Assembly: GCA_018830285.1 (NCBI GenBank)
Contig: JAHJSB010000060.1
Coordinates: forward strand, 1 to 64,000
Origin: Alphaproteobacteria bacterium
GTDB taxonomy: Bacteria; Pseudomonadota; Alphaproteobacteria; Caulobacterales; Hyphomonadaceae
Length of the DNA stretch: 64,000 nucleotides
Direction of reading: 5' to 3'
In this document: in pieces, positions 27,065 through 46,047 of the stretch
Layout of the letters: each line of letters opens with the position of its first letter
Numbering within the stretch: position 1 is the first letter of the stretch
Position numbers and translations under genes: made by a program
The notes under the pieces: generated by a model
What the model was told of the DNA's origin: nothing
The model's input: the letters and a program-made list of their open reading frames with translations, nothing else
The model's database searches: none

Positions 27065-27179
27065 GTTGCACTCTTGTCATGGGCCGTTGCGGGCTTCAAC
27101 TCACCTTTCACGCTTTGGTGACTGGAAGAAACCCGTCAATTGCGGCAGTCGGACCGGGTCAGGCATCGGGAGCAAGCGC

Positions 27180-28235: not shown

Positions 28236-28238
28236 GCG

Positions 28239-29844: not shown

Positions 29845-29968
29845 GGACGACTTATGACCCTGAATGGCTGGAGGGCAAATTGGTTGCACTGACAAAAGTG
29901 TGGTGGCGCCGGATGGATTCGCGTTATAGGCCGCCCTCTCTGCGAAGACTTAACAAAGGATTTTGCTC

Positions 29969-30529: not shown

Positions 30530-32152
30530 CTAGTCCGGCAACATCGCTGACAGCGTTTCGATCCGGTCAGCCTCGGCGGTTGGCTTGTCCCAGCGGATGC
30601 GGTTGATGCGGGGAAAGCGCATGGCGAGGCCGGACTTGTGGCGGGGCGAGCGTTGTAACCCCTCGAACGCCACTTCCAGAACCACGCCGGCCTCCTTGCT
30701 GGCCGTGACGGAGCGGACGGGCCCGAACCGGTCAATCGTATTGGCACGGACAAAGGCATCGAGCTGCTTCAGCTCCGCGTCGGTGAAACCGAAATAGGCC
30801 TTCCCGACGGGGGTGAGCCGGTCCTCGCCATCTTCGTCACGCCAGACACCGAACGTGAAATCGGAATAGAAGCTGGAACGCTTGCCGTGGCCGCGCTGGG
30901 CATACATCAGCACGGCATCGACGAGGAACGGATCGCGCTTCCACTTGTACCAGAAGCCCTTGGGGCGTCCGGCGAGATAGGCGCTGTCCCAGCGTTTCAG
31001 CATCACGCCTTCGATTTCCGGCGCGGGCGGATCGAGACGCGCATCGTCGAGCGCCGCCAGCGTGGTGACGGGGACGAGCGGGGAGAGGTCGAACCGGTCG
31101 CTCTCGATGCCGAGGACAAAGCTTTCAAGCCGGGTGCGGCGTTCACGGAAGGACTGGCCGCGCAGGTCGCGGATGCCGTCCTGCAGCAGGTCATAGGCGC
31201 GAATGAAGGCGGGGTGCGTTTCCAGCTGGCGTTTCGAGACCGTCTTGCGACCCAGTCGCTGCTGCAGCGCATTGAACGGAGCGACGGTGCCGTCGGCATT
31301 GCGGACAAGGAGTTCGCCGTCGAGCGTGCCATGGAATTCCATGGCAGCGACAACGTCCGGGAAGGCGTGGGAGATATCGTCGCCGGTGCGGGTATAGATG
31401 CGGCGCGCGCCGCCTGCCGCAGAGGCCTGGACGCGGACACCGTCGTATTTCCATTCCGCCGCGAACGTGTCTGCAGTGATCAGGCCGGGGTCGACTGCGT
31501 CCGGCGTGTCGCGGTCCGCCTTGGGCACGAGGGGATGGGCGAGCATGACCGGGCGGAACGGCGCGGCGATGTCGGGTGCCGGTTTGTCGGCGCGGCCTTC
31601 GAGCCAGGCGAACAGGCTTCCATAGGGCGGGGCGAGGCCATGCCAGATTTCCTCGATTTCGGTGACGTCCTTGCCGCCGAAAGCCGCGAGCGCGAGCTTG
31701 GCGAGACGGGCCGAGACACCGATGCGCAGGCCGCCGGTCAGCAGTTTCAGGAAGGCCCAGCGGCCGGTCGCGTCGAGACCGTCGAGCCATCCGGCGACCA
31801 GCTTGGGCGCCTCGGCGCGGGGGGCTACGGTCAGCGTTTCGACAATGTCGGACAGGGGTGGCGTGCGATTGGCGCCGCGCACGTCCGGCCAGACCAGGCT
31901 GACCGTTTCGGCCAGGTCGCCGACATAATCATAGGACAGGGCGAACAGTTCCGGGTCCATGCGCCCGTCCATGAGGGCGCGGATCATGGCCGGTTTGACG
32001 TTCGGGATATCGAGATCGCCGGTGATCGCACCGAGCGCATAGCCACGGCCCGGATCAGGCGCGGCGGCGAAATAATCCACCATCAGGCGCAGCTTGCCGT
32101 TGCGCGACGGCGTGAGCACAAGTCTGTCAAGCAGGTCGGCAAAGGCTTGCAT
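30530..32152 (-). CDS. ATP-dependent DNA ligase, ligase-associated damage-response type (PP_1105 family)
   Basis: Seals DNA nicks using ATP. The 540-residue protein has an N-terminal DNA-binding domain (1-200), the adenylation domain with motif I EWKYDGVRV (Lys235 is the expected AMP acceptor), motif III-like FHGTLDGELLVRN, motif IV EGVMLKRWDSAYLAGRPKG and motif V WYKWKRDP, and a C-terminal OB domain. Size and architecture match the bacterial ligase that partners a nuclease, an Lhr-type helicase and a phosphoesterase. All three partners are in this window but not adjacent (34185-35213, 41909-44410, 44559-45281). It is not LigD: no polymerase or phosphoesterase domain. Confidence 0.92.
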   Translation of the reverse strand: MQAFADLLDRLVLTPSRNGKLRLMVDYFAAAPDPGRGYALGAITGDLDIPNVKPAMIRALMDGRMDPELFALSYDYVGDLAETVSLVWPDVRGANRTPPLSDIVETLTVAPRAEAPKLVAGWLDGLDATGRWAFLKLLTGGLRIGVSARLAKLALAAFGGKDVTEIEEIWHGLAPPYGSLFAWLEGRADKPAPDIAAPFRPVMLAHPLVPKADRDTPDAVDPGLITADTFAAEWKYDGVRVQASAAGGARRIYTRTGDDISHAFPDVVAAMEFHGTLDGELLVRNADGTVAPFNALQQRLGRKTVSKRQLETHPAFIRAYDLLQDGIRDLRGQSFRERRTRLESFVLGIESDRFDLSPLVPVTTLAALDDARLDPPAPEIEGVMLKRWDSAYLAGRPKGFWYKWKRDPFLVDAVLMYAQRGHGKRSSFYSDFTFGVWRDEDGEDRLTPVGKAYFGFTDAELKQLDAFVRANTIDRFGPVRSVTASKEAGVVLEVAFEGLQRSPRHKSGLAMRFPRINRIRWDKPTAEADRIETLSAMLPD

Positions 32153-32244
32153 ACGGTCCTACATAGGGCCAAACACGCGGCATGACAGCGCCGAAACAAG
32201 GCGTGTGACTGTTAAAAAAGCCAATTACCAAGGGACATCCATTC

Positions 32245-32859
32245 ATGACGCTCACGCTCCACCATCTCAACGCCTCGCGCTCGCAGCGGATTGTCTGGCT
32301 TCTGGCCGAACTCGGCGTGCCGCACGAGATCGTCCACTACAAGCGCGACGAGACGACCAACCTTGCGCCGCCGGACCTGTTGAAAATCCACCCGATGGGC
32401 AAGTCGCCCCTGCTGGAAGACGGCGATGTGGTGATCGCGGAAACCGGCGCCATCGCGGAATACCTCATGGGCAAGTACGATACGGCCTACCAGCTGCACC
32501 CACGCCCGAACTCGCCGGAATTTCCGCGCTACCTGGAATGGCTGCATGCGGCCGAAGGCGCGGTGTTCCTGCCGGGCCTGCTGCAGGTCTATTTCCGGCG
32601 CGTCGACATGACCGGCAATCCGGTCGAGGCGATGATGGCGGCCGAGCGCGAGAAGGCCGCGAGCACGATTGAGGCGCACCTGTCGAAATATGCGTATTTT
32701 GCCGGCGAGCGCTTTACGGCCGCCGATTGCCTGATGGGTTTCCAGATCCAGATGGCCGATTCCATGGGCGCGTTGGCAAACCGCCCCGCGACCAAGGCCT
32801 GGCTGGAAAAGATGCGGGCGCGCCCTGCCTACAAGGAAATGCTTAAGGTTGGGATTTAG
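32245..32859 (+). CDS. Glutathione S-transferase family protein
   Basis: A 204-residue cytosolic GST. The N-terminal thioredoxin-like domain starts MTLTLHHLNASRSQRIVWLLAELGVPHEIV, with Ser11/Ser13 near the usual catalytic position, a cis-Pro region HPMGKSPLLEDGDVVIAETGAIAEYL, and an all-helical C-terminal domain (YFAGERFTAADCLMGFQI). The family conjugates glutathione to electrophiles or reduces peroxides; the substrate is unknown. It is divergent from the ligase gene, 92 bp apart, so an oxidative or electrophile-stress link is possible but unproven. Confidence 0.88.
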   Translation: MTLTLHHLNASRSQRIVWLLAELGVPHEIVHYKRDETTNLAPPDLLKIHPMGKSPLLEDGDVVIAETGAIAEYLMGKYDTAYQLHPRPNSPEFPRYLEWLHAAEGAVFLPGLLQVYFRRVDMTGNPVEAMMAAEREKAASTIEAHLSKYAYFAGERFTAADCLMGFQIQMADSMGALANRPATKAWLEKMRARPAYKEMLKVGI

Positions 32860-32903
32860 GCTCAGGCACCGCGCCTGCCTGCGCAGGGGCGCTCCTCAAA
32901 GAC

Positions 32904-34127
32904 CTATTTGCAACCATCCGGATTGGCGTCGCAGCGCGCCATGACGGCGTCCATCCAGCCGGCATAGCCCTGCAGGTTGGTGTAGCGGCCGTTATAGTCG
33001 CCGGCGCAAAACTCGCCGGTGGCGCGGTTTTGCTCGACCACTGACAAGACGCCGACAACCGTCCGGGTGCCGTCCGCCTCGGTGACATAGAGCGGGCCGC
33101 CGCTGTCGCCGACGCAGGGGCCGGCACCGCCGGCGCTGGCGACATAGATGATCGACGGGCCGTTCGCTGTGATGGCGAGCTGTGTGGTCAGCAGGTCGTT
33201 CGAGAGCTGGCCGCCATAATGCGTGAGGCCCCAGCCGGCCATGTCGGCAGTCGGGTAATTGGCGGGGGCGAGCGGCTTCGCGGTGGTGCCATAGCGGGCT
33301 ACCGCCACGTCGGCGATCGGCGCGACCTGCGCGTCATCGAGGCGGATCAGGGCGAGGTCATTGGCATAGCCGTTGGCGGTGCCGAGATAGCCAGCATGGC
33401 AGACGGAGACGGTGCCGCTGGTGACCCTGGCGAGCGGGCTGCGCAGGTTGGCCACGTCGCCGATGAGGCGGAGTTCCTGATAGTCGTCGTCAACGCAATG
33501 GGCCGCCGTCACGAACCAGTTCCTTGCGATACGCGTGGCGCCGCAATGGCCGCTGGCGACGGTGCCGTCGGCCTGCGGGTTGCGGGGTTCGAGTTTCACG
33601 ATGCCGGGAAAACTGGCGAGGGTCGCGGCGAGGCCGTTGACGGCTGCGGTGCCGACCGAGGGGGCTTCCAGCGTGGTGGCACCCGCGACCATGGCCACGG
33701 TCGGCGTCGGCGCGCTGCCAGCGGGGCGGCCACAGCTGGCGGCGTTCAGCGCTGCCAGCGTCGGCAGGGGCGCCTGGGTCGTCAGGGCAAGAGCACCGGC
33801 GGACTCGGGCTGGAGGGCAGTTTCTTCGGTCGTCTCTTCCGCCGTTCCGTCTTCAGGTGCGGTTTCGGTGGGTGCCGTGTCATCCGTCGCAGGCAGCGTA
33901 GCGGTCGCATCTGCTGGCGCGTCGACTGTTGTTTCGGTGGCGGGCGTCTCGGCGGGCACGACTTCGACCGAACTGGTCACATCTTCTTCGAACGCGTCTT
34001 CTGGCAGCTGGTCGACCGGACTGGCGGCTTGTTCGTCCGGTGGATTGAGGCCGGGCACCTTGATGGCGTCGCATCCGGCAAGCACGAGCAGGGCGGCAGC
34101 GGCCGCGAGGAGGGCTGGGCGTTTCAT
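32904..34127 (-). CDS. Trypsin-like serine protease with acidic Thr/Glu-rich linker, lipoprotein
   Basis: A 407-residue S1-family protease. Lipoprotein signal ending LLVLAGCDA, then about 110 residues of low-complexity Thr/Ala/Glu/Asp linker that would hold the enzyme away from the membrane. The protease domain (about 150-405) has an intact triad: His in VTAAHCVDDD, Asp in NDLALIRL, Ser in VGDSGGPLY. Several paired Cys suggest disulfides, including one at the C-terminus. The location is periplasm or cell surface. Possible roles are quality control or extracellular proteolysis. Confidence 0.88.
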   Translation of the reverse strand: MKRPALLAAAAALLVLAGCDAIKVPGLNPPDEQAASPVDQLPEDAFEEDVTSSVEVVPAETPATETTVDAPADATATLPATDDTAPTETAPEDGTAEETTEETALQPESAGALALTTQAPLPTLAALNAASCGRPAGSAPTPTVAMVAGATTLEAPSVGTAAVNGLAATLASFPGIVKLEPRNPQADGTVASGHCGATRIARNWFVTAAHCVDDDYQELRLIGDVANLRSPLARVTSGTVSVCHAGYLGTANGYANDLALIRLDDAQVAPIADVAVARYGTTAKPLAPANYPTADMAGWGLTHYGGQLSNDLLTTQLAITANGPSIIYVASAGGAGPCVGDSGGPLYVTEADGTRTVVGVLSVVEQNRATGEFCAGDYNGRYTNLQGYAGWMDAVMARCDANPDGCK

Positions 34128-34184
34128 GTCGTCCCCTTTGAATACACCTATAGCCGTTACTAAAGGCCCCTTGCCGGGGCGCGG

Positions 34185-35213
34185 TCAACCGGCCTCGTCA
34201 GCATAGGCGACCATGCGCAGGGGCCGGGCGCGGCGGCCTTCCAGTTCGGCCCAGCGTACGAGGGCGTCTTCACGCCCATAGGTAACCCAGAGCTCTTCCG
34301 GGTTCACTTCGCGCACCGTTCCGGTCAGTTCGTCCCAGTCGGCATGGTCGGAGATCACCAGCGGCAGCTCCACGCCGCGCTGTTTGGCGCGCTGGCGGAT
34401 GCTCATCCAGCCCGACGCGAAGGCGATGACGGGGTCGGGGAAGTTCTGGGCCCATTTGCCATCGAAACTGCCGGGCGGGGCGACGATAATCTGGCCGCGA
34501 TAGGTTTCGCGGGCGGCTTTCGGCACGTCGCCGGACGGGACAGTGATGAGCGTGCCGAGGTCGATTCCGACGGACTGGTAATGGGCGCAGAGCTTTTCGA
34601 GGCTGGGATGGATGAAGATCGGCGCGTCATGGCCGGCGAGGCGCAGGTGCCGGATGACGCGCTGCGCCTTCCCGAGCGAATAGGCGCCGACGCAATGGGC
34701 GCGCTCGGGAAAAGCCTGCAGGCTGTGCAGGAGGCGGGCAATTTCGCCGCCTGTGTCCGGGTGGCGGAAGACGGGCAGGGCGAAGGTCGCCTCGGAGATG
34801 AACACATGCGTACCGGGGACCGGCTCGAACGTCGCGCAGGTCGGATCGAAACGGCGCTTGTAGTCACCGGTGAAGGTCATGCGCAGGCCCTTGTGTTCGA
34901 CCACGACCTGGGCCGAGCCGAGGATGTGCCCGGCCGGGGCGAGCCAGACGGTGACGCCATTGATCTCGACCGTCTCACCATAGTCCAGTGACTGCGTGGA
35001 CTTGGCAAAATTCTGGCCATAGCGGCAAGCCATGATGGCCAGCGTGTCCGGGTGGGCAAGCACCTTGCCGTGGCCGCCGCGCGCATGATCGGAATGACCA
35101 TGGCTGATGACGGCGCGGTCAACCGCGCCGCGCACGGGATCGAGGTAGAAATCCCCCGGCGGGCAGTAGAGGCCCTTGGGCGTGGGCTGCAGGAGGAGGT
35201 CGGGCCGGAGCAT
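34185..35213 (-). CDS. Ligase-associated MBL-fold/beta-CASP exonuclease
   Basis: A 342-residue metallo-beta-lactamase-fold nuclease of the SNM1/Pso2 type. The metal motif HxHxDH is HGHSDH (His38, His40, Asp42, His43), with VYL-type HILGSAQVVVEH and TGDYKRRFDPTC supplying further ligands, and a late SDHADWDEL motif. This is the family that accompanies the PP_1105-type ligase. The ATG at 35213 opens the family N-terminus MLRPDLLLQPTPKGLYCPPGDF; longer in-frame starts exist. It lies 2 kb from the ligase gene on the same strand, with a GST and a protease in between. Confidence 0.9.
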   Translation of the reverse strand: MLRPDLLLQPTPKGLYCPPGDFYLDPVRGAVDRAVISHGHSDHARGGHGKVLAHPDTLAIMACRYGQNFAKSTQSLDYGETVEINGVTVWLAPAGHILGSAQVVVEHKGLRMTFTGDYKRRFDPTCATFEPVPGTHVFISEATFALPVFRHPDTGGEIARLLHSLQAFPERAHCVGAYSLGKAQRVIRHLRLAGHDAPIFIHPSLEKLCAHYQSVGIDLGTLITVPSGDVPKAARETYRGQIIVAPPGSFDGKWAQNFPDPVIAFASGWMSIRQRAKQRGVELPLVISDHADWDELTGTVREVNPEELWVTYGREDALVRWAELEGRRARPLRMVAYADEAG

Positions 35214-35329
35214 GAGCTGAATGTAGGCAATTGCGGGATGGGGGGAAGGGGCGGGACGCGGTCCCTTCCGCTTTGCAGCCAAGTGGGGTAGGCGACTGGG
35301 CCGCATTCCCCGCATCAAGGGCGTTCCTC

Positions 35330-36559
35330 ATGCAAGTTGGCATCGATTTCGGCACATCGAACACGTCGATCGCGTTTCGCGGTCCGGATGGCACCGCGCT
35401 GATTGCGCTGGAGCCGGACGCCACGTCGATTCCCACGGCCGTGTTCTATGGCCTGGATTCCGGCGAATACGCCATCGGTTCGCAGGCGGTGAGCGCCTAT
35501 GAGTCCGGTGAAGAAGGCCGGTTGATGCGTTCGATCAAGTCGGTCCTTGGCTCGTCGCTGATTGACGAGACGACGGAGCTGGGTCGCCGGCGCCTGCCGT
35601 TTCGTGACGTGATCGTTCATTTCCTGCGCCGGGTGATTGCCAATGCGGAAGCGCAGACCGGGCAGCGCGTCGAGTCGGTCATCCAGGGACGCCCGGTCTC
35701 GTTCAATGACAGGCATGCCGATCTCGACAAGCGCGCGCAGACCATCCTGGAAAGCTGCCTTCACGCGGCGGGCGTTGCCCATGTCGAATTCCTCGAAGAA
35801 CCGGTGGCTGCGGCGCGATCGGTGGCTTTCCCGACCGGCCGGGAAAAGCTGATTTTCGTGGTCGATATCGGGGGCGGCACGTCGGATTTTTCGGTCGTGC
35901 GCATATCGCCCGACAATTCCGGCTTCGACGTGCTGGGCAGTGCCGGCCTCTACGTTGGGGGCAATGATTTCGATCACATGCTGAGCTTCTTCGAGCTCTC
36001 GCACCTGTTCGGGCATGGCGAGACGCTGGCGCTGAACGGGCTGCCGGCGCCATCGGCGCCCTATTCGACCCTGTCGGACTGGAAGAGCCTGAACAAGCTC
36101 TACACACGCGACACCCAGAAGCAGATCAAGTGGATGATGATGAACAGTCCGGACAGTCGCGGCATCCGGGCGTTCGACCATCTGGTGCGCAGCCATGAAG
36201 CGCACACCTATGCCAAGCGCACCGAGCAGATAAAGATCGGCCTCAGCGAGGCGGACCACCAGACATTCGTCTATGACACGCCGGAGGCGCACCTTGAGCG
36301 GCTGGTTGCGCGCGGGACGTTCGAGGGGCTGATCAATGAGGCGATCTCGAAAATGGATGCGGTGGCCGTGGACTGCCTCCGGCAAGCGGGCGTGGCGCCT
36401 GACCAGATCACCGATATCGTGATGGTGGGCGGCTCCACCTTCATCCCGCTGGTGCAGGAACGGCTGGCAGGACGGTTCGGCAATGCCGCCCTCTCAGCCA
36501 ATGACCGCTTCGGCGCCGTCGCCAAAGGCCTTGCCCTGCATGGGGCGGCAACCCGATAG
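35330..36559 (+). CDS. Hsp70-family ATPase, YegD-like
   Basis: A 409-residue actin-fold ATPase without the C-terminal substrate-binding domain of DnaK. The phosphate loops are VGIDFGTSNTSIAF (N-terminus) and FVVDIGGGTSDFSVVRI, and the adenosine motif is IVMVGGSTFIPLVQERL. The length and N-terminus match the YegD group of uncharacterised Hsp70-like proteins. The longer open frame starting at 35231 has no supporting signals. It is divergent from the exonuclease gene (116 bp between starts), so the two share an upstream region. The client or partner is unknown. Confidence 0.87.
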   Translation: MQVGIDFGTSNTSIAFRGPDGTALIALEPDATSIPTAVFYGLDSGEYAIGSQAVSAYESGEEGRLMRSIKSVLGSSLIDETTELGRRRLPFRDVIVHFLRRVIANAEAQTGQRVESVIQGRPVSFNDRHADLDKRAQTILESCLHAAGVAHVEFLEEPVAAARSVAFPTGREKLIFVVDIGGGTSDFSVVRISPDNSGFDVLGSAGLYVGGNDFDHMLSFFELSHLFGHGETLALNGLPAPSAPYSTLSDWKSLNKLYTRDTQKQIKWMMMNSPDSRGIRAFDHLVRSHEAHTYAKRTEQIKIGLSEADHQTFVYDTPEAHLERLVARGTFEGLINEAISKMDAVAVDCLRQAGVAPDQITDIVMVGGSTFIPLVQERLAGRFGNAALSANDRFGAVAKGLALHGAATR

Positions 36560-36575
36560 CGGATGTGCTGGCCGC

Positions 36576-38861
36576 CTAGATCGCAGCCAGGACCGCTTCC
36601 GGCGTGATCGGGATATGGCGAAGGCGTGCGCCGACAGCGTTGAAGATCGCATTGCCGATCGCCGGACCGACGACTGTTGTGGCGGGCTCGCCAAGACCCA
36701 CCGGCACTTCCGTGCTTTCGACAAAACTGATGTCGAGTTCCGGCACATCGGCGAGGCGCAGCGGCGTGTAGGGGCCGAGGTTCAGGTCCCTGACCTGTCC
36801 GTTCACGAACTCCGTGCCCTCGTGCAGTGCGAGCGAGAGGCCCCAGAGGGCCGCCCCCTCCATCTGCGCCAGCGCGCCATCCGGATCGATGATCGTGCCG
36901 GCATCGGCCACAAGTGTCAGCTTCTCGACCGTGACGCGGCCGCTGGCGCGATCGACACGGACCTGCGCTGTACAGGCAACCCATGTCGGCATGCCGCGTT
37001 CCTGCCCGAAGCTGGTTGCGAGGCCGATTCCGGTGTCGGCGGGGAGGGTTTTGCCCCATCCGGCCTTGGCGGCGCAGCGGCGCACGACTTCGGCCTGGCG
37101 CAGCGCGCCGCCGACGGCGTTCGGCGCCGAGCCGGCGTTCATGCCGGCACCGTCGAGCAGGGTCAGACGGAAACCGACGGGGTCCTTGCCGAGCGTATGG
37201 GCCGCCTCGTCCATGAAGCTTTCGAGCGCCCAATTGGTGAAGCCGGGCCCAACCGAGCGCAGCCAGCCTGGCCGGAACGTGCTGTTGGCAAGGTCGTTCG
37301 AGACGGCGCGGACGCGGTGCGAACCGACCGTGTACCAATGGTCTGCGCCGCTGACGGCGAAGGGGTCATAGGCCACTCCATTCACGCCGTTCGGCATGAA
37401 GAAAGGCGCCATCACCTGGGTCGGCCAGCCGGCGGCGACATGTTGTTCCATCCCGGTGACCTTGCCATCGGCGTCGGCGGCGAGGCGGAGACGCTGGACG
37501 CTGGGCGAGCGCACCGAGTCCATGCGGGTATCATCCTCGCGGGTGAGCACCATCTTGACCGGCTTGCCGAGCGCCTTGGCGGCGAGGGCGGCTGGCACGG
37601 CATAGTCGCCGTTCAGCCTGCGGCCGAAACCGCCGCCGAGCCGGTAAGTACGCATCACGATCTTGTCTTCCGGCATGCCGAGGGCTGTGGCGAGCCATGG
37701 GAGCACGAGGCTCTGCCATTGGTTGCCAGTGTGGATTTCCATCACGCCGTCTTTTTCGAAGGCGAGGGCATTGACGGGTTCTAGGTGCATGTGGAGCGCG
37801 GTGCCGGTCGTGTAGGTGGCTTCCACCTTCGTCGTCGCGGCGGCGAAGGCTGCCGTCGTGTCGGTGAGGCCGGTGTCGAGAATGGCGCCCTGTGACGGGT
37901 CGTCGAGCAGGCTGCCGGCATGGTCCTGGATTTGCTTTTCGGAAACCTTTGACGTCGGGCCGGGGGTCCAGTCGACCTTGACGAGGTCAACCGCCTTGAC
38001 GGCTGCCGGATAGGTGTCTGCGATCACCATGACCCAGCCGGTCACGGTGCCGGAGGGATCGTCGATCACCAGGCTCTGCTGGTAGCCCTTCACCGATTTT
38101 GCGGCGCTGTCGTCAACGGAATTGACTTTCGACCCATTGCGCGTCGGCGGCATGATGGGCCGGGCATAGACCATGCCGTCGACCTTGGCGTCGATGCCGT
38201 AGAGGGCGGTGCCATTGGTCTTCTCCATGATGTCTCGCGCCATGACCGGCTTGCCGATCAGGCGGCGTTCCGCAGCAGGCTTGACCGGGAGGGCAGCGAG
38301 TTCCTCGGGCGTGAAGATCTTGCTGACGCCCTTCTTGACGATATCGGCATAGCTGATCTTCTTGCTGCCGGAGATGACTTCGCCATTGCGGGCGGTGCAG
38401 GTTGCGGCATCGACGCCGAGGGCGGCGGCGCCCGCTTCGATCAACGCGGTCCGGCCAGCTGCGCCGGCCTGCGAATAGATCGGGAAGGTCTGCCAGACAG
38501 ACCAGCTGCCGCCAGTGACCATGAGGCCCCATTTCGGATCGGAGTCGACCTGCTTGATACGGACATTGTCCCACGCGATTTCAAGCTCGTCGGCGAGGAT
38601 CCGCGCGAGCGCTGTGCCGACATGCTGGCCCATCTCGGCGCGGATGATGTTGATCGTCGCGATGCCGTCGGCACCGATGGAATACCAGAGCGAGGGGGCA
38701 TAGAGCTCGGCATCGATTGTGGTGGCGTCACCCGGTGCATCCTTGGCGCCGCAGGCGGTCAGGAAGCTGAAGGCGAGGCCGCCGCCGGCCGTGGTGATGA
38801 GAAAGCCGCGCCGCGAGAGAGCGGTCGGGGCGGAATCGGTGGTGCGTGTGAAGCGTGACAT
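36576..38861 (-). CDS. Xanthine-dehydrogenase-family molybdopterin subunit, IorB-like
   Basis: The large molybdopterin-cytosine-dinucleotide subunit of a periplasmic aldehyde or N-heterocycle hydroxylase. From the ATG at 38861 (GGAGG 9 nt upstream) it is 761 residues, opening with a twin-arginine signal LSRRGFLITTAGGGLAFSFLTACG. The Mo-binding region shows GGFGRRLNGDYA, HMHLEPVNA and near the C-terminus the active-site glutamate motif VGLGEPATT. The electron-transfer iron-sulfur subunit is encoded 5 bp upstream. No cytochrome-type third subunit or cofactor-maturation gene (CoxI/XdhC type) is adjacent. The substrate is unknown. Confidence 0.88.
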   Translation of the reverse strand: MSRFTRTTDSAPTALSRRGFLITTAGGGLAFSFLTACGAKDAPGDATTIDAELYAPSLWYSIGADGIATINIIRAEMGQHVGTALARILADELEIAWDNVRIKQVDSDPKWGLMVTGGSWSVWQTFPIYSQAGAAGRTALIEAGAAALGVDAATCTARNGEVISGSKKISYADIVKKGVSKIFTPEELAALPVKPAAERRLIGKPVMARDIMEKTNGTALYGIDAKVDGMVYARPIMPPTRNGSKVNSVDDSAAKSVKGYQQSLVIDDPSGTVTGWVMVIADTYPAAVKAVDLVKVDWTPGPTSKVSEKQIQDHAGSLLDDPSQGAILDTGLTDTTAAFAAATTKVEATYTTGTALHMHLEPVNALAFEKDGVMEIHTGNQWQSLVLPWLATALGMPEDKIVMRTYRLGGGFGRRLNGDYAVPAALAAKALGKPVKMVLTREDDTRMDSVRSPSVQRLRLAADADGKVTGMEQHVAAGWPTQVMAPFFMPNGVNGVAYDPFAVSGADHWYTVGSHRVRAVSNDLANSTFRPGWLRSVGPGFTNWALESFMDEAAHTLGKDPVGFRLTLLDGAGMNAGSAPNAVGGALRQAEVVRRCAAKAGWGKTLPADTGIGLATSFGQERGMPTWVACTAQVRVDRASGRVTVEKLTLVADAGTIIDPDGALAQMEGAALWGLSLALHEGTEFVNGQVRDLNLGPYTPLRLADVPELDISFVESTEVPVGLGEPATTVVGPAIGNAIFNAVGARLRHIPITPEAVLAAI

Positions 38862-38866
38862 GGGTC

Positions 38867-39328
38867 TCAGCCTCCCTTCATGGCGTCGGCGGCCTGGCGC
38901 ATGGCGGCCCGGATGCGAGTATAGGTCATGCAGCGGCACAGGTTCCCGGTCATGATCGAGTCGATATCGGCGTCCGACATGTTGGGATCCTCGGCGAGCG
39001 CTGCGGCGGCCTGCATGATCTGACCCGATTGGCAGTAGCCGCATTGCGGGACCTGGAGGTCCTGCCAGGCCAGCTGGACGGGATGCGAGCTGTTCGGATC
39101 GAGGCCTTCGATCGTGGTGATCTCCTCACCGTCGACGGTGCTTACCGGTGTGATGCAGGACCGGACGGCCACGCCACCGATATGAACTGTGCAGGCCCCG
39201 CACTGGCCAACGCCGCAACCGAACTTGGTGCCAGTGAGATTGGCCTCGTCCCGGATCACCCAGAGCAGGGGCGTGTCGGGATCGGTGTCGATCGTGAAGG
39301 GTTTTCCGTTGAGCTTGAAGCTGGTCAT
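38867..39328 (-). CDS. [2Fe-2S] subunit of the IorAB-type molybdoenzyme
   Basis: A 153-residue protein with the two iron-sulfur sites of this family: the plant-type cluster Cys38, Cys43, Cys46 and Cys58 (FGCGVGQCGACTVHIGG...SC), and the helical cluster with CGYCQSGQIM and NLCRCMTY. It moves electrons from the Mo centre to an acceptor. The start at 39328 follows GGAG with 5-nt spacing; the open frame runs further but without a signal. It is first in a two-gene operon with the large subunit. It has no signal peptide of its own and is probably carried out with its Tat-signalled partner. Confidence 0.9.
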   Translation of the reverse strand: MTSFKLNGKPFTIDTDPDTPLLWVIRDEANLTGTKFGCGVGQCGACTVHIGGVAVRSCITPVSTVDGEEITTIEGLDPNSSHPVQLAWQDLQVPQCGYCQSGQIMQAAAALAEDPNMSDADIDSIMTGNLCRCMTYTRIRAAMRQAADAMKGG

Positions 39329-39604
39329 GTCGTCTCCATCATTTCCGTCGGGCATCGCGACCGTGCCTGCCGGTTCCACAACATTCTCGTCGGGCGGGCC
39401 ATCGGTATCCCGGAGCGCCTGCCATTGCGTTAGCCCCAACATAATCGCCCATTTCGGCCACGTGTCCAGCGCGGGTCGGTCAGATGCGCTTCACATTGTT
39501 GCTGGAGGGGTGAGGTCTGGTTGCCAAATCCCTAACTGCCTCGCCATACTTGCGACATGAAATCGTGCGCATACACTGGCACCCGTAACAGGAAAGACTT
39601 GTCC

Positions 39605-41110
39605 ATGCGTCCAGTGTCCGCCGTGATCGTATCCCTAGCTGCGCTCGCAGTATCCGCCTCAACGGCCTTTGCGCAGGAGGGTGGCAATACAGACGATATG
39701 GACCTGGCGCTGGCGGCCGGTTGGAAAGCCGCCTTCACCTGTTCCGACCTGTTCACGGCGGGCCAGTCGATGGCCGAGATCGACCAGAATGATCTCAGCG
39801 GCATCTACCCGGATTACCAGCGGGCGTTCGACACGCTGCCCAAGGCGCAGGTCAATACGGCGATGAAGACCGTGTCGGTGACCTATTCATCCGCGATGCC
39901 GCCGCGCATCGCTGCCTGGCGCCCGGGATTCGGCTGCACGCAGCTGCCGATCGGCGCCGATTCCAGCATGATTTCCTTCCTGCCGCATTTTGCCAGCTGG
40001 CCGGCGGCACCGGCGCAGGACCGGGGCAGCGCCATCGGCGCGAACGTCAAGATACAGCTGCGCACCGAAGAGGCCGAGCGGCTTGAAGCGCCGGTCTCGT
40101 TCGCCTTTGACGAGCGCACCTATGGCAATGGCACGCGCACCAGCGCTGTACTCGTCGTGCGTGACGGCCAGGTCGTGGCCGAGCGCTATGCGCTTGGCGT
40201 GGACCATGAGACGCCGCAGCGGACATGGTCTGCCGGCAAGTCGATTGCGGCCACCGTGCTGGGCGCGGCCCGGCGCAACGGCCTGATCGATATTGATTAT
40301 CCTGCAGTGATTGCCGACTGGAACAATGGCGCCGATCCGCGCCGGGCGATCACGATCCGCAACCTGATGCACATGGCGAGCGGCCTCGACAGCGGCGAGA
40401 GCGGATCGCGCACCGACCGGATCTATTTCGGCGGCGGGAGGGTGGCCGACCAGGCCGCCAGCAAGGTGCTGGAAGCCATGCCGGGAACACGGTTCAAATA
40501 TTCCAACAATGACACGCTGATTGCGATGCGGTCGCTGCGCGAGTCGATGAACGATGACAATGCGTTCCATCGCTTCCCGTATGAGGGCCTGCTGAACAAG
40601 ATCGGCGCGGCGCACACGACCATGGAAATCGACTGGAACGGCGATTTCATCGCCTCGAGCCAGGTCTGGTCAACGGCGCGCGACCTGGCGCGAGTGGGCC
40701 AGCTCTACCTGCAGGACGGCCTGTGGGGCAATGAGCGCCTTCTGCCCGAGGGCTGGGCGGAATTCGTGCGCACGCCAGCCCCGGCGCAACCGGCAAGCGG
40801 GCCCGGTTATGGCGCGCAATTCTGGTTGATGAATGATGCGGCGGGGGTTCCCGAAGGCACGTTCTATATGGCGGGCAACCGGGGCCAGTATGTTGTGATC
40901 GTGCCGAGCATGAACGCCGTGATCGTTCGGCGCGGCTATGACGCGAATGGCGGGGCAAACTTCGAGATCAATGATTTCACCCGCGACGTGCTGCTGGCCC
41001 TGCAGGCGGCGGACGACGAGCGGGCCGCGCTCAGGGCGCAGGCCGAGCGTGATGCGGAGCTGGAGAACATGTCGCCGAAGGAACGGGCGAAGTTTCTCGC
41101 CGGGCAATAG
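39605..41110 (+). CDS. Secreted serine hydrolase, beta-lactamase family
   Basis: A 501-residue exported penicillin-binding-like hydrolase. Signal peptide SLAALAVSASTAFA-QEG; the ATG at 39605 with AGGAAAG upstream opens it. The SxxK motif is SAGK (Ser209, Lys212), the second motif is YSN in FKYSNNDTL, and the third-motif region is AGNRGQYVVIVP. C-terminal residues 470-501 are a charged coiled-coil-like tail (RAALRAQAERDAELENMSPKERAKF). It differs clearly from the shorter serine hydrolase at 15633, with a longer N-terminal domain before SxxK. Substrate unknown. Confidence 0.85.
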   Translation: MRPVSAVIVSLAALAVSASTAFAQEGGNTDDMDLALAAGWKAAFTCSDLFTAGQSMAEIDQNDLSGIYPDYQRAFDTLPKAQVNTAMKTVSVTYSSAMPPRIAAWRPGFGCTQLPIGADSSMISFLPHFASWPAAPAQDRGSAIGANVKIQLRTEEAERLEAPVSFAFDERTYGNGTRTSAVLVVRDGQVVAERYALGVDHETPQRTWSAGKSIAATVLGAARRNGLIDIDYPAVIADWNNGADPRRAITIRNLMHMASGLDSGESGSRTDRIYFGGGRVADQAASKVLEAMPGTRFKYSNNDTLIAMRSLRESMNDDNAFHRFPYEGLLNKIGAAHTTMEIDWNGDFIASSQVWSTARDLARVGQLYLQDGLWGNERLLPEGWAEFVRTPAPAQPASGPGYGAQFWLMNDAAGVPEGTFYMAGNRGQYVVIVPSMNAVIVRRGYDANGGANFEINDFTRDVLLALQAADDERAALRAQAERDAELENMSPKERAKFLAGQ

Positions 41111-41123
41111 TCCGGCGAGAGGC

Positions 41124-41807
41124 CTATTTGGCGCCCATGCCGGACTCGGGCACGGCTTTCAGGTTGGTAATCGTCTGACGTTCGGACTCGCTGAAATCCT
41201 TCATCATGGCGGATCCGCTGATATCGACATTGACGCGGGCAACATGCGTGCGCCCGTCGGGTGCGCGGTTGCAGGCGACTTCCATTTCGAACTGGCTGAT
41301 CCGGGCAATCGGCAGCGGCCTGAAGGGCTTTTCGGCGACCATTTCGACAGACAGGATGGCCGGGTCGTCCTTGGCGACGACGACCTTGCCTTTGAGGTAT
41401 TTGAGTATGTCGTCCATGTCGCCCGGTTCAGCGCCGACCTTGGGCGCGTAGGTATAGGTTGCGGTCGTGGGAGTTTCGGACTCGAGCGCGGCATCGTCCG
41501 GAATGTTGTGACCGAGGCTGCTGCACCAGATGTCGCCATCGGAATCGGCCTGCATCTTTTTGACCTGCTTCCGGAAATCGTCGCTCCAGTCTTTGCGTGG
41601 CGGAGAGATCACGGTGAGGCGTTCGCCTTCGGGCTGCGTCGGGTCGACCCGCATCATCGCATCGGTGCCGTCATTCTGAAGGATCACGTCGAATATATAT
41701 AGCGGCCCGTCCGGACTGGCGGCGAGCGCATCCTGCAGCGGGGTTCCGGCGAGCGCCTGCCACGGAAGGAGGGCGAACAGGGCGAGCGGTAGGAGGGAGC
41801 GGTGCAT
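41124..41807 (-). CDS. Exported hypothetical protein (227 aa)
   Basis: Not recognised. A signal peptide (LPLALFALLPWQALA-GTP) is followed by a 208-residue soluble domain with mixed alpha/beta character and few Cys (WCSSLGHN and EVACNRAPDG, which could pair). The start at 41807 is chosen for its AAGGG and signal peptide. Convergent with the serine hydrolase (13 bp between stops) and divergent from the helicase gene. Confidence 0.65.
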   Translation of the reverse strand: MHRSLLPLALFALLPWQALAGTPLQDALAASPDGPLYIFDVILQNDGTDAMMRVDPTQPEGERLTVISPPRKDWSDDFRKQVKKMQADSDGDIWCSSLGHNIPDDAALESETPTTATYTYAPKVGAEPGDMDDILKYLKGKVVVAKDDPAILSVEMVAEKPFRPLPIARISQFEMEVACNRAPDGRTHVARVNVDISGSAMMKDFSESERQTITNLKAVPESGMGAK

Positions 41808-41849
41808 GATCAGACCCTTGTGGCGACGCTTGAACTGGCCAGACAACAA

Positions 41850-41863
41850 GGTTCACCTGAACC
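41850..41863. promoter_or_regulatory. Perfect palindrome GGTTCA-CC-TGAACC upstream of the helicase gene
   Basis: A 6-2-6 perfect inverted repeat, 45 bp before the helicase start and 42 bp before the divergent exported-protein gene. It contains GTTC/GAAC halves like alphaproteobacterial SOS elements, but facing each other with 4-bp spacing rather than the direct GTTC-N7-GTTC of the known LexA box, so it is a candidate operator of unknown regulator. Confidence 0.4.
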
Positions 41864-41908
41864 GCGCCTGAAAATAAAGAGGCAAGTGCCACGTCTTGCG
41901 ATAGTTTA

Positions 41909-44410
41909 ATGCCCGACATGCCCGATAGCGCCGCCCCTGCATTTACCTTGCCTGAGCCCTTTGCCGGCTGGTTTGCCGCGCGTGGCTGGCAGGCCCGGCC
42001 GCACCAGATGGCACTGACCGAAGCGGCGCTGGCAGGCGAGAGCGCGCTGCTGATCGCGCCGACGGGAGGGGGCAAGACGCTGGCGGGGTTCATGGCGAGC
42101 CTGATCGAGCTGAAGGAGAAGGCGCGCGCATCGAACACCGGCATTCCGGCGCTTCACACGCTGTACATCTCGCCGCTCAAGGCGCTGGCGGTGGATGTGC
42201 AGCGCAACCTGATGGCGCCGGTGGGCGACATGGGGCTGGATATCCGGATCGAGACGCGCACGGGCGACACGCCCTCCCATGTGCGCCAGCGCCAGCGGCG
42301 CAATCCGCCGGACGTATTGCTGACAACGCCGGAACAGCTGGCCCTGTTCATCGCGTCCGACCATGCGAAGGATTTCTTTGCCGACCTGAAATGCGTGATC
42401 GTGGATGAGGTACACGCGATGGCGGCGTCGAAGCGCGGCGACCTGTTGTCGCTGGGGCTCGCGACGCTTGGCAACTGGGCGCCGGCGTGCCGGTTCATCG
42501 GCCTGTCGGCGACAGTGAAGGAACCGGAGGAACTGGCGCGGTGGCTGGCGCCGGACGCGCGGATCATACGGGCAGAAGGCGGCGTGTCGGCGGAAGTGGA
42601 TATCCTTGTCTCACGCGAGCGGATTCCATGGTCGGGCCATTCCGGGCGGTTCGCGGTGCCGGAAGTGTATGAGGCCATCAAGGGCGCAAGGATGGCGCTT
42701 GTCTTCGTCAATACGCGCAGCCAGGCCGAAGTGATGTTCCAGGAGCTGTGGCGGGTGAATGACGAGAATTTGCCGATCGCGCTGCACCATGGCTCGCTGG
42801 CGAAGGACCAGCGCGTGCGGGTCGAGGCGGCGATGGCGGCGGGCCAGCTGAAGGCGGTGGTGTGTACCTCGACGCTCGACCTCGGCATTGACTGGGGCGA
42901 GGTGGACCTCGTGATTCAGATGGGCGCGCCGAAGGGCGCGGCGCGGCTGATCCAGCGTATCGGGCGGGCGAACCACCGGATGGACGAAGCAAGCCGGGCG
43001 GTGCTGGTGCCGACCAACCGGTTCGAGGTGCTGGAATGCCGCGCGGCGGAGGCGGCGGTCGAGGCCGGCGAGATTGACGGCGAGGGCCTCAGGCAAGGCT
43101 CGCTCGATGTGCTGGCGCAGCATGTGATGGGACGGGCCTGCGGCGACGGGTTCGATCTGGCGCCGCTATATGAGGAGATCGTGCGGGCGGCGCCTTATGC
43201 GGATCTCGACTGGGAGACGTTCGAGCGGATCGTCGATTTCGTCGCGAGCGGTGGCTATGCGCTGAAGACCTATGACCGGTTCCACCGGATCGTGCGGCGG
43301 CCCGACGGGCGCTGGGTGGCGCGCACGGCCCAGGACGCGCAGCAACACCGGATGAATGTCGGGGCGATTGTCGAGGCGGTGCAATTGTCGGTGCGGCTGG
43401 CCAGTTTCGTGGGCAAGGGGGCCGGCACGCCGGGCGAAAAGCGGACGGTGCGGGCGGGCCGCAAGCTGGGCGAGATTGAAGAGTATTTCATCTCGACGCT
43501 CGTGCCGGGGGACACATTCCTGTTCGGCGGCGAAGTGCTGCGCCTGATCGGTGTCGAAGGGCTCGACGTGCTGACGGTTCGGGCGGTGGGCGAGAAGCCG
43601 GCGATACCCTCCTATAATGGCGGGAAATTCCCGCTGACGACCTTCCTCGCCGAGCGGGTGCGCCAGATGATCCATGACCCGGCGCAGTGGGGCGCGTTGC
43701 CGGGGCCGGTGCGGGAATGGTTCGCGGTTCAGGCGCGCCGCTCAAGCATTCCGCCTCCGGATCATTTGCTGGTCGAAACCTTCCCGCGCGGCGAGCGGCA
43801 TTATATGGTCTGCTATCCGTTCGAGGGGCGGCTCGCGCACCAGACGCTGGGCATGCTGCTGACGCGGCGGCTGGAGCGGATGGGGGCGAAACCGCTCGGC
43901 TTTGTGGCGAGCGAATATGCGATGGCCGTCTGGGCGATGGAGGACATGGCCGGGATCGACATGAGCGACCTGTTCCACCCGGACATGATGGGCGACGATC
44001 TCGAGGCGTGGCTGGACGAGAGCGCGCTGATGAAGCGGACCTTTGCCCATTGCGCGCAGGTGTCCGGGCTGATTGCGCGCAACCTGCCGGGCAAAGAGAA
44101 GAATTCGCGGCAGGTGAGTTTCTCCAGCGACCTGATCTATGACGTGCTGCGCAGCCATGAGCCGGATCATATACTGCTGCAGGCGGCGCGGCAGGACGCG
44201 GCGACGGGCCTTCTCGACGTGCGGCGCCTGTCTGACATGCTGGTGCGCATTCGCGGCAAGATCGATCATAATGTGCTGGACCGTATCAGCCCGTTCGCGG
44301 TGCCGGTGATGCTGGAAATGGGCCGGGAGCCTGTATTCGGCGCCTCGGTGCAGGATGCGGTGCTGGGCGAGGCGGAAGACGTGCTGGTGCGCGACGCGAT
44401 GCGGGAGTGA
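41909..44410 (+). CDS. Ligase-associated DEXH helicase (Lhr-core type)
   Basis: An 833-residue superfamily 2 DNA helicase. Walker A is APTGGGKT (residues 50-57), motif II DEVH (166-169), motif III SATVKEPEELARWL, and motif VI RLIQRIGRANHRMDEA. A winged-helix and Lhr-specific C-terminal domain follow. This is the size of the helicase that accompanies the PP_1105-type ligase rather than the ~1500-residue full Lhr. The PdeM gene follows after 148 bp, with an interspersed palindromic repeat in the gap. The ligase and exonuclease lie 9.8 and 6.7 kb away on the opposite strand. Expected role: 3'-5' translocation in repair of damaged or nicked DNA. Confidence 0.93.
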   Translation: MPDMPDSAAPAFTLPEPFAGWFAARGWQARPHQMALTEAALAGESALLIAPTGGGKTLAGFMASLIELKEKARASNTGIPALHTLYISPLKALAVDVQRNLMAPVGDMGLDIRIETRTGDTPSHVRQRQRRNPPDVLLTTPEQLALFIASDHAKDFFADLKCVIVDEVHAMAASKRGDLLSLGLATLGNWAPACRFIGLSATVKEPEELARWLAPDARIIRAEGGVSAEVDILVSRERIPWSGHSGRFAVPEVYEAIKGARMALVFVNTRSQAEVMFQELWRVNDENLPIALHHGSLAKDQRVRVEAAMAAGQLKAVVCTSTLDLGIDWGEVDLVIQMGAPKGAARLIQRIGRANHRMDEASRAVLVPTNRFEVLECRAAEAAVEAGEIDGEGLRQGSLDVLAQHVMGRACGDGFDLAPLYEEIVRAAPYADLDWETFERIVDFVASGGYALKTYDRFHRIVRRPDGRWVARTAQDAQQHRMNVGAIVEAVQLSVRLASFVGKGAGTPGEKRTVRAGRKLGEIEEYFISTLVPGDTFLFGGEVLRLIGVEGLDVLTVRAVGEKPAIPSYNGGKFPLTTFLAERVRQMIHDPAQWGALPGPVREWFAVQARRSSIPPPDHLLVETFPRGERHYMVCYPFEGRLAHQTLGMLLTRRLERMGAKPLGFVASEYAMAVWAMEDMAGIDMSDLFHPDMMGDDLEAWLDESALMKRTFAHCAQVSGLIARNLPGKEKNSRQVSFSSDLIYDVLRSHEPDHILLQAARQDAATGLLDVRRLSDMLVRIRGKIDHNVLDRISPFAVPVMLEMGREPVFGASVQDAVLGEAEDVLVRDAMRE

Positions 44411-44425
44411 GGCGGCGTTGGGAGG

Positions 44426-44496
44426 CTCATCCTGAGCGGAGTCGAAGGAGCGCCTCGTGCGGCCCGCGCTCGTCCTTCGACTTCGCTCAGGATGAG
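44426..44496. repeat. Interspersed palindromic (REP-type) repeat
   Basis: Two 24-nt arms (44426-44449 and 44473-44496) that are reverse complements except for one base, around a 23-nt GC-rich centre. Each arm contains CATCCTGAGC...GTCGAAGGA, a repeat unit widely scattered in Caulobacterales and sphingomonad genomes. It fills most of the gap between the helicase and PdeM genes and would form a long hairpin in a joint transcript. Confidence 0.88.
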
Positions 44497-44558
44497 CGCT
44501 GTTCATGCGTGGAACAAGCGTTTGACGGGTGACCCAATGCGGGCCACTTTCACAGGCC

Positions 44559-45281
44559 ATGACTGCGCTTGCGTCCTGCCCTTCTGAAACGGTGCTGCAT
44601 CTGGGCGGCGAGATGCTGCTGCCGCTGCCGGAAGGTGCGCTGTGGTGGGCGGCTGAACGCGTGCTCGTGGTCTCCGACCTGCACCTTGAAAAGGGCAGCG
44701 CCTATGCGGCGCGGGGGCAGATGCTGCCGCCTTATGATACCGGCGCGACGCTGGGCGTGGTCGAGCGGTTGTGTGCGCAGCTCTCGCCGCAGACGGTGAT
44801 CTCGCTGGGCGACAGTTTCCATGACCGGGCTGCCGAGCTGCGCCTGCCACCGCCCTATGCGGCGCGGATACAGGCGCTGACCGGGGCGCATGACTGGGTC
44901 TGGGTGGAGGGCAACCACGATCCGGACCCGCCGGCCTATCTGGGCGGACGCGCGGCGAATGTGCTGCAGATCGGATCGCTTGTCTTCCGGCATGAGCCGA
45001 CCGGCGCGGCGGGTGAGATTGCCGGGCACCTGCATCCGGCGGCCAAGGTGAAGGCGCGCGGACGCATGGTGCGGCGGCGCTGTTTTGCCAGCGATGGGGC
45101 GCGCCTCGTGATGCCGGCCATGGGCACGTTCACCGGCGGGCTGAATGTTCTGGATGCGGCCTTCGCGCCGCTCTTCCCGGAAGGTCTGATGGCTTTCGCG
45201 CTGGGCGCCGAGCGCGTGTTTGCCGTGTCAGCGAAAAGCCTCGTGCCGGATGTGGCGAATGGCGCGCGCTGGCGATTCTAG
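44559..45281 (+). CDS. pdeM: Ligase-associated metallophosphoesterase
   Basis: A 240-residue calcineurin-fold phosphoesterase of the ligase-associated family (PdeM). Metal motifs are in order: VVSDLHLEKG, SLGDSFHD, VEGNHDPD and GHLHPAAKV. FASDGARLVMPAMGTFTGGLNV is typical of the family. A GTG at 44529 gives 10 more residues; the ATG is preferred but neither has a good Shine-Dalgarno. It follows the helicase on the same strand, and the S24 repressor gene comes 148 bp later. In other bacteria it belongs to a four-gene repair operon. Confidence 0.9.
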   Translation: MTALASCPSETVLHLGGEMLLPLPEGALWWAAERVLVVSDLHLEKGSAYAARGQMLPPYDTGATLGVVERLCAQLSPQTVISLGDSFHDRAAELRLPPPYAARIQALTGAHDWVWVEGNHDPDPPAYLGGRAANVLQIGSLVFRHEPTGAAGEIAGHLHPAAKVKARGRMVRRRCFASDGARLVMPAMGTFTGGLNVLDAAFAPLFPEGLMAFALGAERVFAVSAKSLVPDVANGARWRF

Positions 45282-45372
45282 CCTGACAAGGCGACACCGA
45301 AGACGATGCGGCCCGTGATCATGGCGATGAAGGCCGTCAGGACGAGCCCCCTTGGCCGCTCGAACGCCTGCC

Positions 45373-45406
45373 TTGACAATAGGATTATATACCCATTACC
45401 AATGGG
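45373..45406 (+). promoter_or_regulatory. Promoter with palindromic operator for the S24 repressor gene
   Basis: TTGACA (45373-45378) is a consensus -35. About 17 bp on, the -10 region lies inside a perfect palindrome CCCATT-ACC-AATGGG (45392-45406). The operator would occlude the promoter, as expected for an autoregulated repressor. The ATG is 24 bp downstream of the palindrome. Confidence 0.6.
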
Positions 45407-45429
45407 CTGGACAGAACAGGGCTGATTCG

Positions 45430-46047
45430 ATGCAGCACCGGGATATCTGGCGGGGAATTGATCAGCTGGCGGCGCATCACGGCCTGTCGGCCTCGGGCCT
45501 TGCGCGGCGCGCCGGGCTGGATCCGACGGCGTTCAACCCGTCGAAACGCGAAGGCGCCGATGGCCGCCCGCGCTGGCCCTCGACCGAGAGCCTCGCGCGC
45601 GTGCTGGAAGCGGTCGGCAGCGGGTTTGACGATTTTGCCGTCCTTGTGGAGGGGCGGCGCGGCGGCCTCGCGCCGCTGATCGTCTTTGCGCAGGCCGGGC
45701 AGGACGGCTTCTTTGACGATGCGGGCGTCCCGGTCGGCGCGGGCTGGGAAGAAGTGCGGTTTCCGGGGCTCGGCGACGAGCCGCTCTATGCGCTGCAGAT
45801 CAGCGGCGATTCCATGGAGCCGGCCTATCGGGCGGGCGACCGGATCATCGTGGCGCCGGGCGCCGAGGTGAAGCCGGGCGACCGAGTGGTGGCGAAGACT
45901 ATGGCGGGCGAAGTGATGGCCAAGGTGCTGGCCCGGCGCAATACGCGGTCGGTGGGCCTCGCCTCGCTGAACCCGGACTATCCGATGCGCAGTTTCAGGC
46001 CGAGCGAGATCGCCTGGATTGCGCGCATCCTGTGGGCGAGCCAGTAG
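45430..46047 (+). CDS. S24-family (LexA/CI-like) HTH repressor-protease
   Basis: A 205-residue regulator. The N-terminal helix-turn-helix is DIWRGIDQLAAHHGLSASGL with LARRAGLDPTAFNPSKREG. The C-terminal S24 domain has a probable Ala-Gly cleavage point in FAQAGQDGFF, the catalytic Ser in ISGDSMEPAYRAGDRIIV and the catalytic Lys in VVAKTMAGE. The ATG at 45430 starts the conserved alphaproteobacterial N-terminus. Self-cleavage on RecA filaments is plausible from the intact dyad. Its position right after the helicase-PdeM genes suggests it may control them or respond to the same damage, though its own palindrome was not found in front of the helicase. A DUF3147 gene follows after 3 bp. Confidence 0.87.
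   Translation: MQHRDIWRGIDQLAAHHGLSASGLARRAGLDPTAFNPSKREGADGRPRWPSTESLARVLEAVGSGFDDFAVLVEGRRGGLAPLIVFAQAGQDGFFDDAGVPVGAGWEEVRFPGLGDEPLYALQISGDSMEPAYRAGDRIIVAPGAEVKPGDRVVAKTMAGEVMAKVLARRNTRSVGLASLNPDYPMRSFRPSEIAWIARILWASQ

Follow-up and report, generated by a model that had tools for sequence, protein, structure and literature searches.

A scattered ligase-associated DNA repair locus in the Hyphomonadaceae, probably loosened by insertions, and the S24 repressor beside it

Why do the four genes of the ligase-associated DNA repair set lie scattered over 15 kb and on both strands, with a predicted self-cleaving repressor directly behind the last of them? The question is raised by a contig of an alphaproteobacterium of the Hyphomonadaceae (JAHJSB010000060.1, assembly GCA_018830285.1), of which we analysed positions 1 to 64,000, here called the window. 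The original prediction, made from the sequence alone, had proposed either an operon in dispersal or a locus whose intervening genes have joined the damage response. We consider it likely that the window holds a standard alphaproteobacterial repair locus loosened by insertions, that its four proteins form one pathway, and that the repressor, a protein of the S24 family, is an old neighbour that represses itself and does not control the set.

The four repair genes and their usual layout

A profile search of the window placed all four families of the ligase-associated set (TIGR04120 to TIGR04123) above their curated cut-offs:

30530..32152, minus strand: ATP-dependent DNA ligase (TIGR04120, 784 bits, cut-off 400), with the motif KYDGVR
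34185..35213, minus strand: MBL-fold exonuclease (TIGR04122, 437 bits, cut-off 325), with HGHSDH and SDHAD; its start is the Met preceding the family match
41909..44410, plus strand: Lhr-Core-type helicase (TIGR04121, 1091 bits, cut-off 850), with GGGKT, DEVH, SAT and QRIGRANHR
about 44559..45281, plus strand: PdeM, an MPE metallophosphoesterase (TIGR04123, 216 bits, cut-off 150), with SDLH, GDSFHD, GNHD and GHLHP; its start was assigned in this analysis

The motifs, which we take to be the catalytic ones, were read in the proteins, and the claim that the whole set is present and intact was thus borne out. A defence-system reading was dropped, the PADLOC matches of the helicase looking like general SF2 helicase homology. 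By coordinates and strands, the four genes do not form one compact operon in the window. Such an operon had been assumed to be the usual form, which does not hold for Alphaproteobacteria. We used a sample of 190 alphaproteobacterial genomes drawn evenly across the class, in which the exonuclease was found in 53 and the helicase in 72; all 53 have both. The control genome, Caulobacter vibrioides, gave matches to all four families and was above the exonuclease cut-off. In 30 of the 53 the two genes are within 15 kb of each other, divergently in 29 and convergently in one. Because 29 of the 30 linked pairs are divergent, the norm in the class, when the genes are linked, is an arrangement of two divergent pairs (<-PdeM<-helicase, exonuclease->ligase->) and not a single operon. 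The exonuclease-helicase gap of the window, 6.8 kb, is the longest among the 29 divergent pairs. At 80 named ligase loci (the best 80 of the 596 pattern matches listed, with counts limited to the flank covered and some flanks cut by contig ends) we saw all four genes at 26, three genes at 2, exonuclease and ligase at 44 and the ligase alone at 8. As an observation in its own right, the genome G059 (L149) carries a compact set with the helicase divergent from exonuclease-ligase and PdeM adjoining the helicase; its ligase and exonuclease sit on a long branch together with their counterparts in G055.

We mapped the neighbourhood by tblastn in the genus of the window (the window and 36 congeners, 37 genomes), which forms part of a wider set of 61 genomes. 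Four groups were distinguished by an rpoB tree together with ligase, exonuclease and protease trees: I (10 genomes), II (6, including the window), III (7) and IV (14). The rpoB tree, rooted on 10 genomes from three other families, held 40 of the 61 genomes and 30 of the 37 of the genus; the genome of the window (no rpoB match) and six congeners (no, partial or two-piece rpoB) were outside it, and the remaining genomes were assigned by the other trees. The native ligase and exonuclease trees split into groups I to III, matching the species.

All 16 genomes of groups I and II share the order ligase, protease, exonuclease, hydrolase, helicase, PdeM, S24, with a glutathione S-transferase (GST) and an Hsp70 that vary. 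The set lies in one stretch in 14 of them; contig breaks cut it in the other two, inside the hydrolase in G027 and near codon 75 of the helicase in G002, where the remainder begins another contig. The comparison of relatives that the original prediction had called for thus revealed no scatter over random distant sites in these groups. No protease was matched in the seven group III genomes. G003 and G020 have ligase and exonuclease linked; in four others the two genes are on different contigs, both near contig ends in G009, G013 and G026, and with the ligase inside its contig in G017. G025 yielded no exonuclease; its ligase sits close to the end of a contig, and the helicase contig begins at the hydrolase, where the exonuclease would lie. 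Since four of the seven group III ligases are at contig ends, we claim a separated ligase for G017 alone.

Insertions, losses and replacements

The GST, protease, Hsp70-like ATPase, molybdoenzyme and hydrolase described earlier between the repair genes were all found, together with one further gene at 41124-41849. The intervening and adjoining features are:

29963..30397, plus strand: HU-family DNA-binding protein (PF00216, 88 bits), tail to tail with the ligase; absent from the earlier list
32245..32859, plus strand: GST-like protein (PF02798), divergent from the ligase with a gap of 92 bp; accessory
32904..34127, minus strand: trypsin-like protease (PF00089), between ligase and exonuclease
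35330..36559, plus strand: YegD-like Hsp70 (NF008673, 190 bits, below the cut-off of 331), divergent from the exonuclease with a gap of 116 bp; accessory
36576..39442, minus strand: molybdoenzyme large subunit and 2Fe-2S subunit (PF02738, PF20256, PF01799)
39557..41110, plus strand: beta-lactamase-fold hydrolase (PF00144), with a homologue between helicase and exonuclease in Henriciella too
41124..41849, minus strand: gene without a family match, divergent from the helicase; absent from the earlier list
44426..44496, no strand: REP-like inverted repeat between helicase and PdeM, both arms (TCCTTCGACTNCGCTCAGGATGAG) matching

The 41124-41849 protein had no match in Pfam, NCBIfam or PADLOC, and homologues lie at the locus in most genomes of the genus according to the tblastn map. 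No second copy of the repeat was found elsewhere in the window. Elsewhere in the window, an ArsM-like methyltransferase lies between two MscS-type channels (25967-29069), and MscS-type genes near the helicase were also seen in G063, G069 and G043.

In Henriciella (L250, L251) the locus is compact (<-helicase<-hydrolase exonuclease->ligase->), with the exonuclease and ligase matches 8 bp apart. Genes, relative order and orientation are the same as in the window, with 70-77% identity for exonuclease, ligase and helicase, but no match to the GST, protease, Hsp70, molybdoenzyme or HU homologue lies in between; PdeM and S24 gave no match within the flank covered. In a midpoint-rooted ligase tree, for which 25 of the 80 named loci were used and the G049 ligase was left out, the native ligases of the genus group with those of Henriciella (support 87) and Ponticaulis (99). 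Because Henriciella, close kin in this tree, has the compact order without the inserted genes, dispersal is supported, and the window is the loosened form of a once-compact locus, by insertions in this genus. The predicted dispersal therefore stands, but its starting form was two divergent pairs and not an operon. From such an ancestral form (PdeM-helicase and exonuclease-ligase), the protease and GST would have entered between ligase and exonuclease, and the Hsp70, the molybdoenzyme and the 41124-41849 gene would have been inserted around a hydrolase already in place. Helicase and PdeM are also loosening in the genus, their gap ranging from 114 to 4563 bp in the 35 of 37 genomes counted and exceeding 1 kb in 13.

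The same comparisons bear on the idea that the four genes came together recently and by chance, so that their closeness would be no remnant of linkage. This would agree with some genomes from two other families of the order, in which a long distance (G060) or a contig boundary (G048, G053) separates the helicase from the exonuclease-ligase pair. With the compact Henriciella version in the same relative orientation, and with 29 of the 30 class pairs within 15 kb divergently linked, we regard a chance assembly as highly improbable.

We also considered whether divergent promoters shared with the repair genes have brought the GST, protease and Hsp70 into the damage response. The short divergent gaps between GST and ligase and between Hsp70 and exonuclease would allow this, and the GST adjoins the native ligase in 18 of the 23 genus genomes having that ligase (in G009, one of the other five, the contig ends there). 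However, the Hsp70 adjoins the native exonuclease in only 12 of 22 genomes, the molybdoenzyme large subunit was seen at only 2 of 22 loci, and the protease is kept at the locus in group IV although the native ligase and exonuclease are gone. Moreover, the steadiest companion of the ligase is the HU-like gene, found beside it in 23 of 23 genomes and without a match at the group IV locus; as the two genes are tail to tail, they share no promoter. Neither a LexA box nor a strict S24 operator (both described below) was found in the 250 bp upstream of the GST or Hsp70 in the genus. Since the intervening genes come and go among genomes, the proposal that they were recruited is unsupported, and we think it very unlikely.

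The distribution of the genes themselves is asymmetric. Among the 61 genomes, the ligase is above cut-off in 41, the exonuclease in 40 and both in 40, and helicase and PdeM are each present in 55 if the helicase of G030, which is split, and the PdeM pieces of G053 are included. No genome has the ligase (0/41) or the exonuclease (0/40) without the helicase, and in 14 only helicase and PdeM of the set are present. In the class sample the exonuclease likewise never occurs without the helicase (0/53), and the helicase occurs without the exonuclease in 19 of 72 genomes. A genome has either both ligase and exonuclease or neither, whether or not the two are linked (40/41; the exception is G025). We infer that helicase and PdeM are a base module and exonuclease and ligase an add-on module; no probability is given for this dependence because related genomes are not independent. 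Lhr-Core helicases unwind DNA, PdeM incises single-stranded DNA, MBL exonucleases trim and ATP ligases seal. Judged by these families, the base module would unwind the DNA and incise the single strand, and the add-on module would trim and seal. It is most likely that the four proteins continue to work in a single pathway.

Group IV has lost the native add-on module. Its locus reads protease, hydrolase, 41124-41849-type gene, helicase in the 12 of 14 genomes with this place in view (G011 and G030 have short contigs there), with neither ligase nor exonuclease flanking the protease, and native ligase and exonuclease were found in none of the 14. Helicase and PdeM are kept in all 14, the G030 helicase in two pieces. 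In nine genomes a tight exonuclease-ligase pair, about 50% identical to that of the window, lies elsewhere. The ligases of these pairs form one group (support 100), which has two deep branches and, in the midpoint-rooted tree, is separate from the native ligases and adjoins the ligase of one marine genome (88). A tblastx comparison, noisy and therefore read by its long shared stretches only, suggests that the foreign pair occupies three sites (G008, G016, G034 and G030; G001, G010 and G022; G011 and G024). In G014 (L113) the first ~60 exonuclease codons and the last ~40 ligase codons stand side by side, a remnant that looks like an internal deletion, and G018, G021, G023 and G031 have neither gene.

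As a finding on the window alone, this is fairly ordinary. In the genus, where the set has come apart and some species have lost part of it or had part replaced, the division of labour becomes testable: under the one-way dependence, exonuclease and ligase would be useless without Lhr-Core and PdeM, and species with helicase and PdeM only, with the native exonuclease and ligase, or with the foreign pair provide natural deletions.

The S24 protein and its operator

Behind PdeM follow a candidate operator and the repressor gene:

45379..45396, no strand: candidate S24 operator ATAGG-N8-CCCAT in the gene's own promoter, directly after TTGACA, identified by comparison of promoters with congeners
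45430..46047, plus strand: S24 (CI-like) repressor of 205 residues (PF00717, 72 bits), starting 148 bp after the PdeM stop codon

The protein has the S24 autoprotease residues (Ala89-Gly90, Ser128, Lys165); the dipeptide at the cleavage site and the Ser and Lys are conserved in 34-35 of the 35 genus proteins counted (out of 37) and in 27-28 of 30 other proteins. Its C-terminal part matches lambda CI (E 4e-4), and an N-terminal helix-turn-helix reached only 15 bits with HTH_31, below the cut-off of 27. Against the LexA profile TIGR00498 it scored 19.9 bits, with a cut-off of 110.95. The protein had been announced as a LexA/CI-like self-cleaving repressor; domain, residues and lambda CI match agree with a CI-like one, but it is not LexA.

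Most S24 promoters of congeners carry ATAGG-N8-CCTAT right after TTGACA or a near form of TTGACA. The strict pattern TAGG-N8-CCTA is present in 24 of 36 S24 promoters of the genus, the CCCAT form of the window not being strict. In other families the operator half-site occurs in 18 of 24 S24 promoters (shuffled mean 1.2, maximum 6). The S24 protein most likely represses its own promoter through this predicted operator. Another candidate, CCCATT-acc-AATGGG (45392-45406), is the only exact match in the window but was absent from the congeners' S24 promoters and was dropped; its count in the genome (9 places with at most one mismatch; control 1) was not used. A large S24 regulon was rejected too, as ATAGG-N6-TTCCTAT with one mismatch allowed gave 40 matches against 54 in the control over eight genomes, which is no excess.

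A damage-sensing repressor dedicated to the helicase-PdeM unit and the ligase set would explain why S24 adjoins PdeM here and why its autoprotease residues are conserved in genus and class. We scanned promoters of the genus with strict patterns over 250 bp upstream, the region upstream of PdeM being left out. The strict S24 operator occurred at none of the 31 ligase, 31 exonuclease and 36 helicase promoters, nor at those of the GST (0/18), Hsp70 (0/12), protease (0/28), hydrolase (0/34) and 41124-41849-type gene (0/33). The box GTTC-N7-GTTC, which we take to be the alphaproteobacterial LexA box, was likewise absent (0/31, 0/31 and 0/36 for the three repair genes; none upstream of GST or Hsp70). 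At the named loci it stood upstream of 3/80 ligase, 1/72 exonuclease and 2/28 helicase genes (raw counts without a control). LexA control of the set was rejected, the three boxes in the window (1002, 7819 and 59257; 1.26 expected) not being near it.

Gene order in the genus also speaks against a dedicated repressor. In 30 of 37 genomes no more than 5 kb separates S24 from PdeM (group I 10/10, II 6/6, III 0/7, IV 14/14); in group III the two are 213-223 kb apart where they share a contig (G017, G020, G025), and they are on separate contigs in the remaining four genomes. S24 does not track the ligase and exonuclease, because it is kept in group IV without the native pair and is away in group III with the native ligase.

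Across the class, 53 of 190 genomes gave an S24 match. Among the 28 in which S24 occurs together with helicase or exonuclease, nine have it within 25 kb of the helicase (two in the genus itself, seven outside it in five families), five have it farther away on one contig and 14 on different contigs. These nine exceed the ~1% expected by position (arithmetic for a 4 Mb genome) and would favour a dedicated repressor, as would S24 within 10 kb of the ligase at 6 of the 80 named loci. However, lysyl-tRNA synthetase and DUF952-PyrD recur as S24 neighbours in the class, and the stretch between S24 and helicase holds MATE, thioesterase and MscS genes in some families; because such neighbours recur, the place beside the helicase region appears to be an old neighbourhood. 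We consider a dedicated repressor distinctly unlikely; S24 probably does not control the four repair genes and, as proposed above, is an old neighbour. In a separate observation, six alphaproteobacterial genomes of five families (L339, L340, L342, L343, L344, L347, L350) have podovirus-type genes on the divergent side of the S24 orthologue; in G119 the connector, major head, tail and terminase proteins beside it match PHROGs. A prophage, a gene-transfer agent or a domesticated element are candidates for these genes.

A second S24-type site, the nearly fixed ATAGGAAAGTTATCCTA, recurs in six congeners among eight genomes scanned (that of the window and seven others); at the stringency used, the genome of the window and G003 gave no match. 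In five of the six (L182 in G016, L189 in G012, L194 in G029, L356 in G009, L357 in G036) the same small protein comes next, starting ~65-70 bp after the site (in G012 at the homologous start), and the G029 copy matches Bac_DnaA_C (46 bits, cut-off 31.5); a different gene follows in G020. The TTG that stands a short way ahead of the site is reminiscent of the S24 promoter. The Bac_DnaA_C-type gene is thus a possible second target of S24; another regulator is possible as well, because the inner bases of the site are constant too. We tentatively suggest, as a rather doubtful extension, that S24 is a self-cleaving switch independent of LexA and retained by some Alphaproteobacteria, which in the genus would read its own ATAGG-N8-CCTAT and the matching site in the promoter region of the DnaA-domain gene, and which in other families has DUF952-PyrD or a podovirus-type head-tail module as its divergent neighbour. 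On this view, DNA damage would set free a modulator of replication initiation that is adjacent to but separate from the ligase-associated genes.

Several points weigh against a loosened standard locus with S24 as a bystander. A divergent arrangement can be called usual only where the two genes are linked: exonuclease and helicase lie more than 15 kb apart on one contig in 4 of the 53 class genomes and on separate contigs in 19. Genomes within one sample are not independent, and group IV probably lost its two native genes in a single event, which therefore counts once. Group I is a basal grade in the rpoB tree, which covers 30 of the 37 genus genomes and not that of the window, and a clade in the ligase and exonuclease trees. 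The joint function of the four proteins is itself inferred. A strict 250-bp scan without PdeM would miss weaker sites, because the window's own S24 operator fails the strict form, and the closeness of S24 and helicase across families (9/28 within 25 kb) could reflect function and not old synteny.

Comparison with known systems

The S24 protein resembles lambda CI and LexA in its Peptidase_S24 domain, in the conserved Ala-Gly, Ser and Lys, and in a palindromic site at its own promoter. It differs from them in being a chromosomal gene kept through the genus, in not being LexA, and in its operator, which is another one.

The repair genes correspond to the Lhr-Core / MPE / Exo / LIG nucleic-acid repair gene cluster (Ejaz and Shuman 2018, cited after PMC8301817 and PMC10140301), and the window has all four families above NCBIfam cut-offs and with their motifs. 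PMC8301817 reports that in 276 of 319 genomes the PdeM homologue lies close to the bacterial Lhr-Core gene; PMC10140301 describes the four-gene set as an operon and states its damage target as unknown. In contrast to that description, the linked pairs in our class sample are nearly always arranged as two divergent halves, and in the genus of the window both halves are interrupted by insertions.

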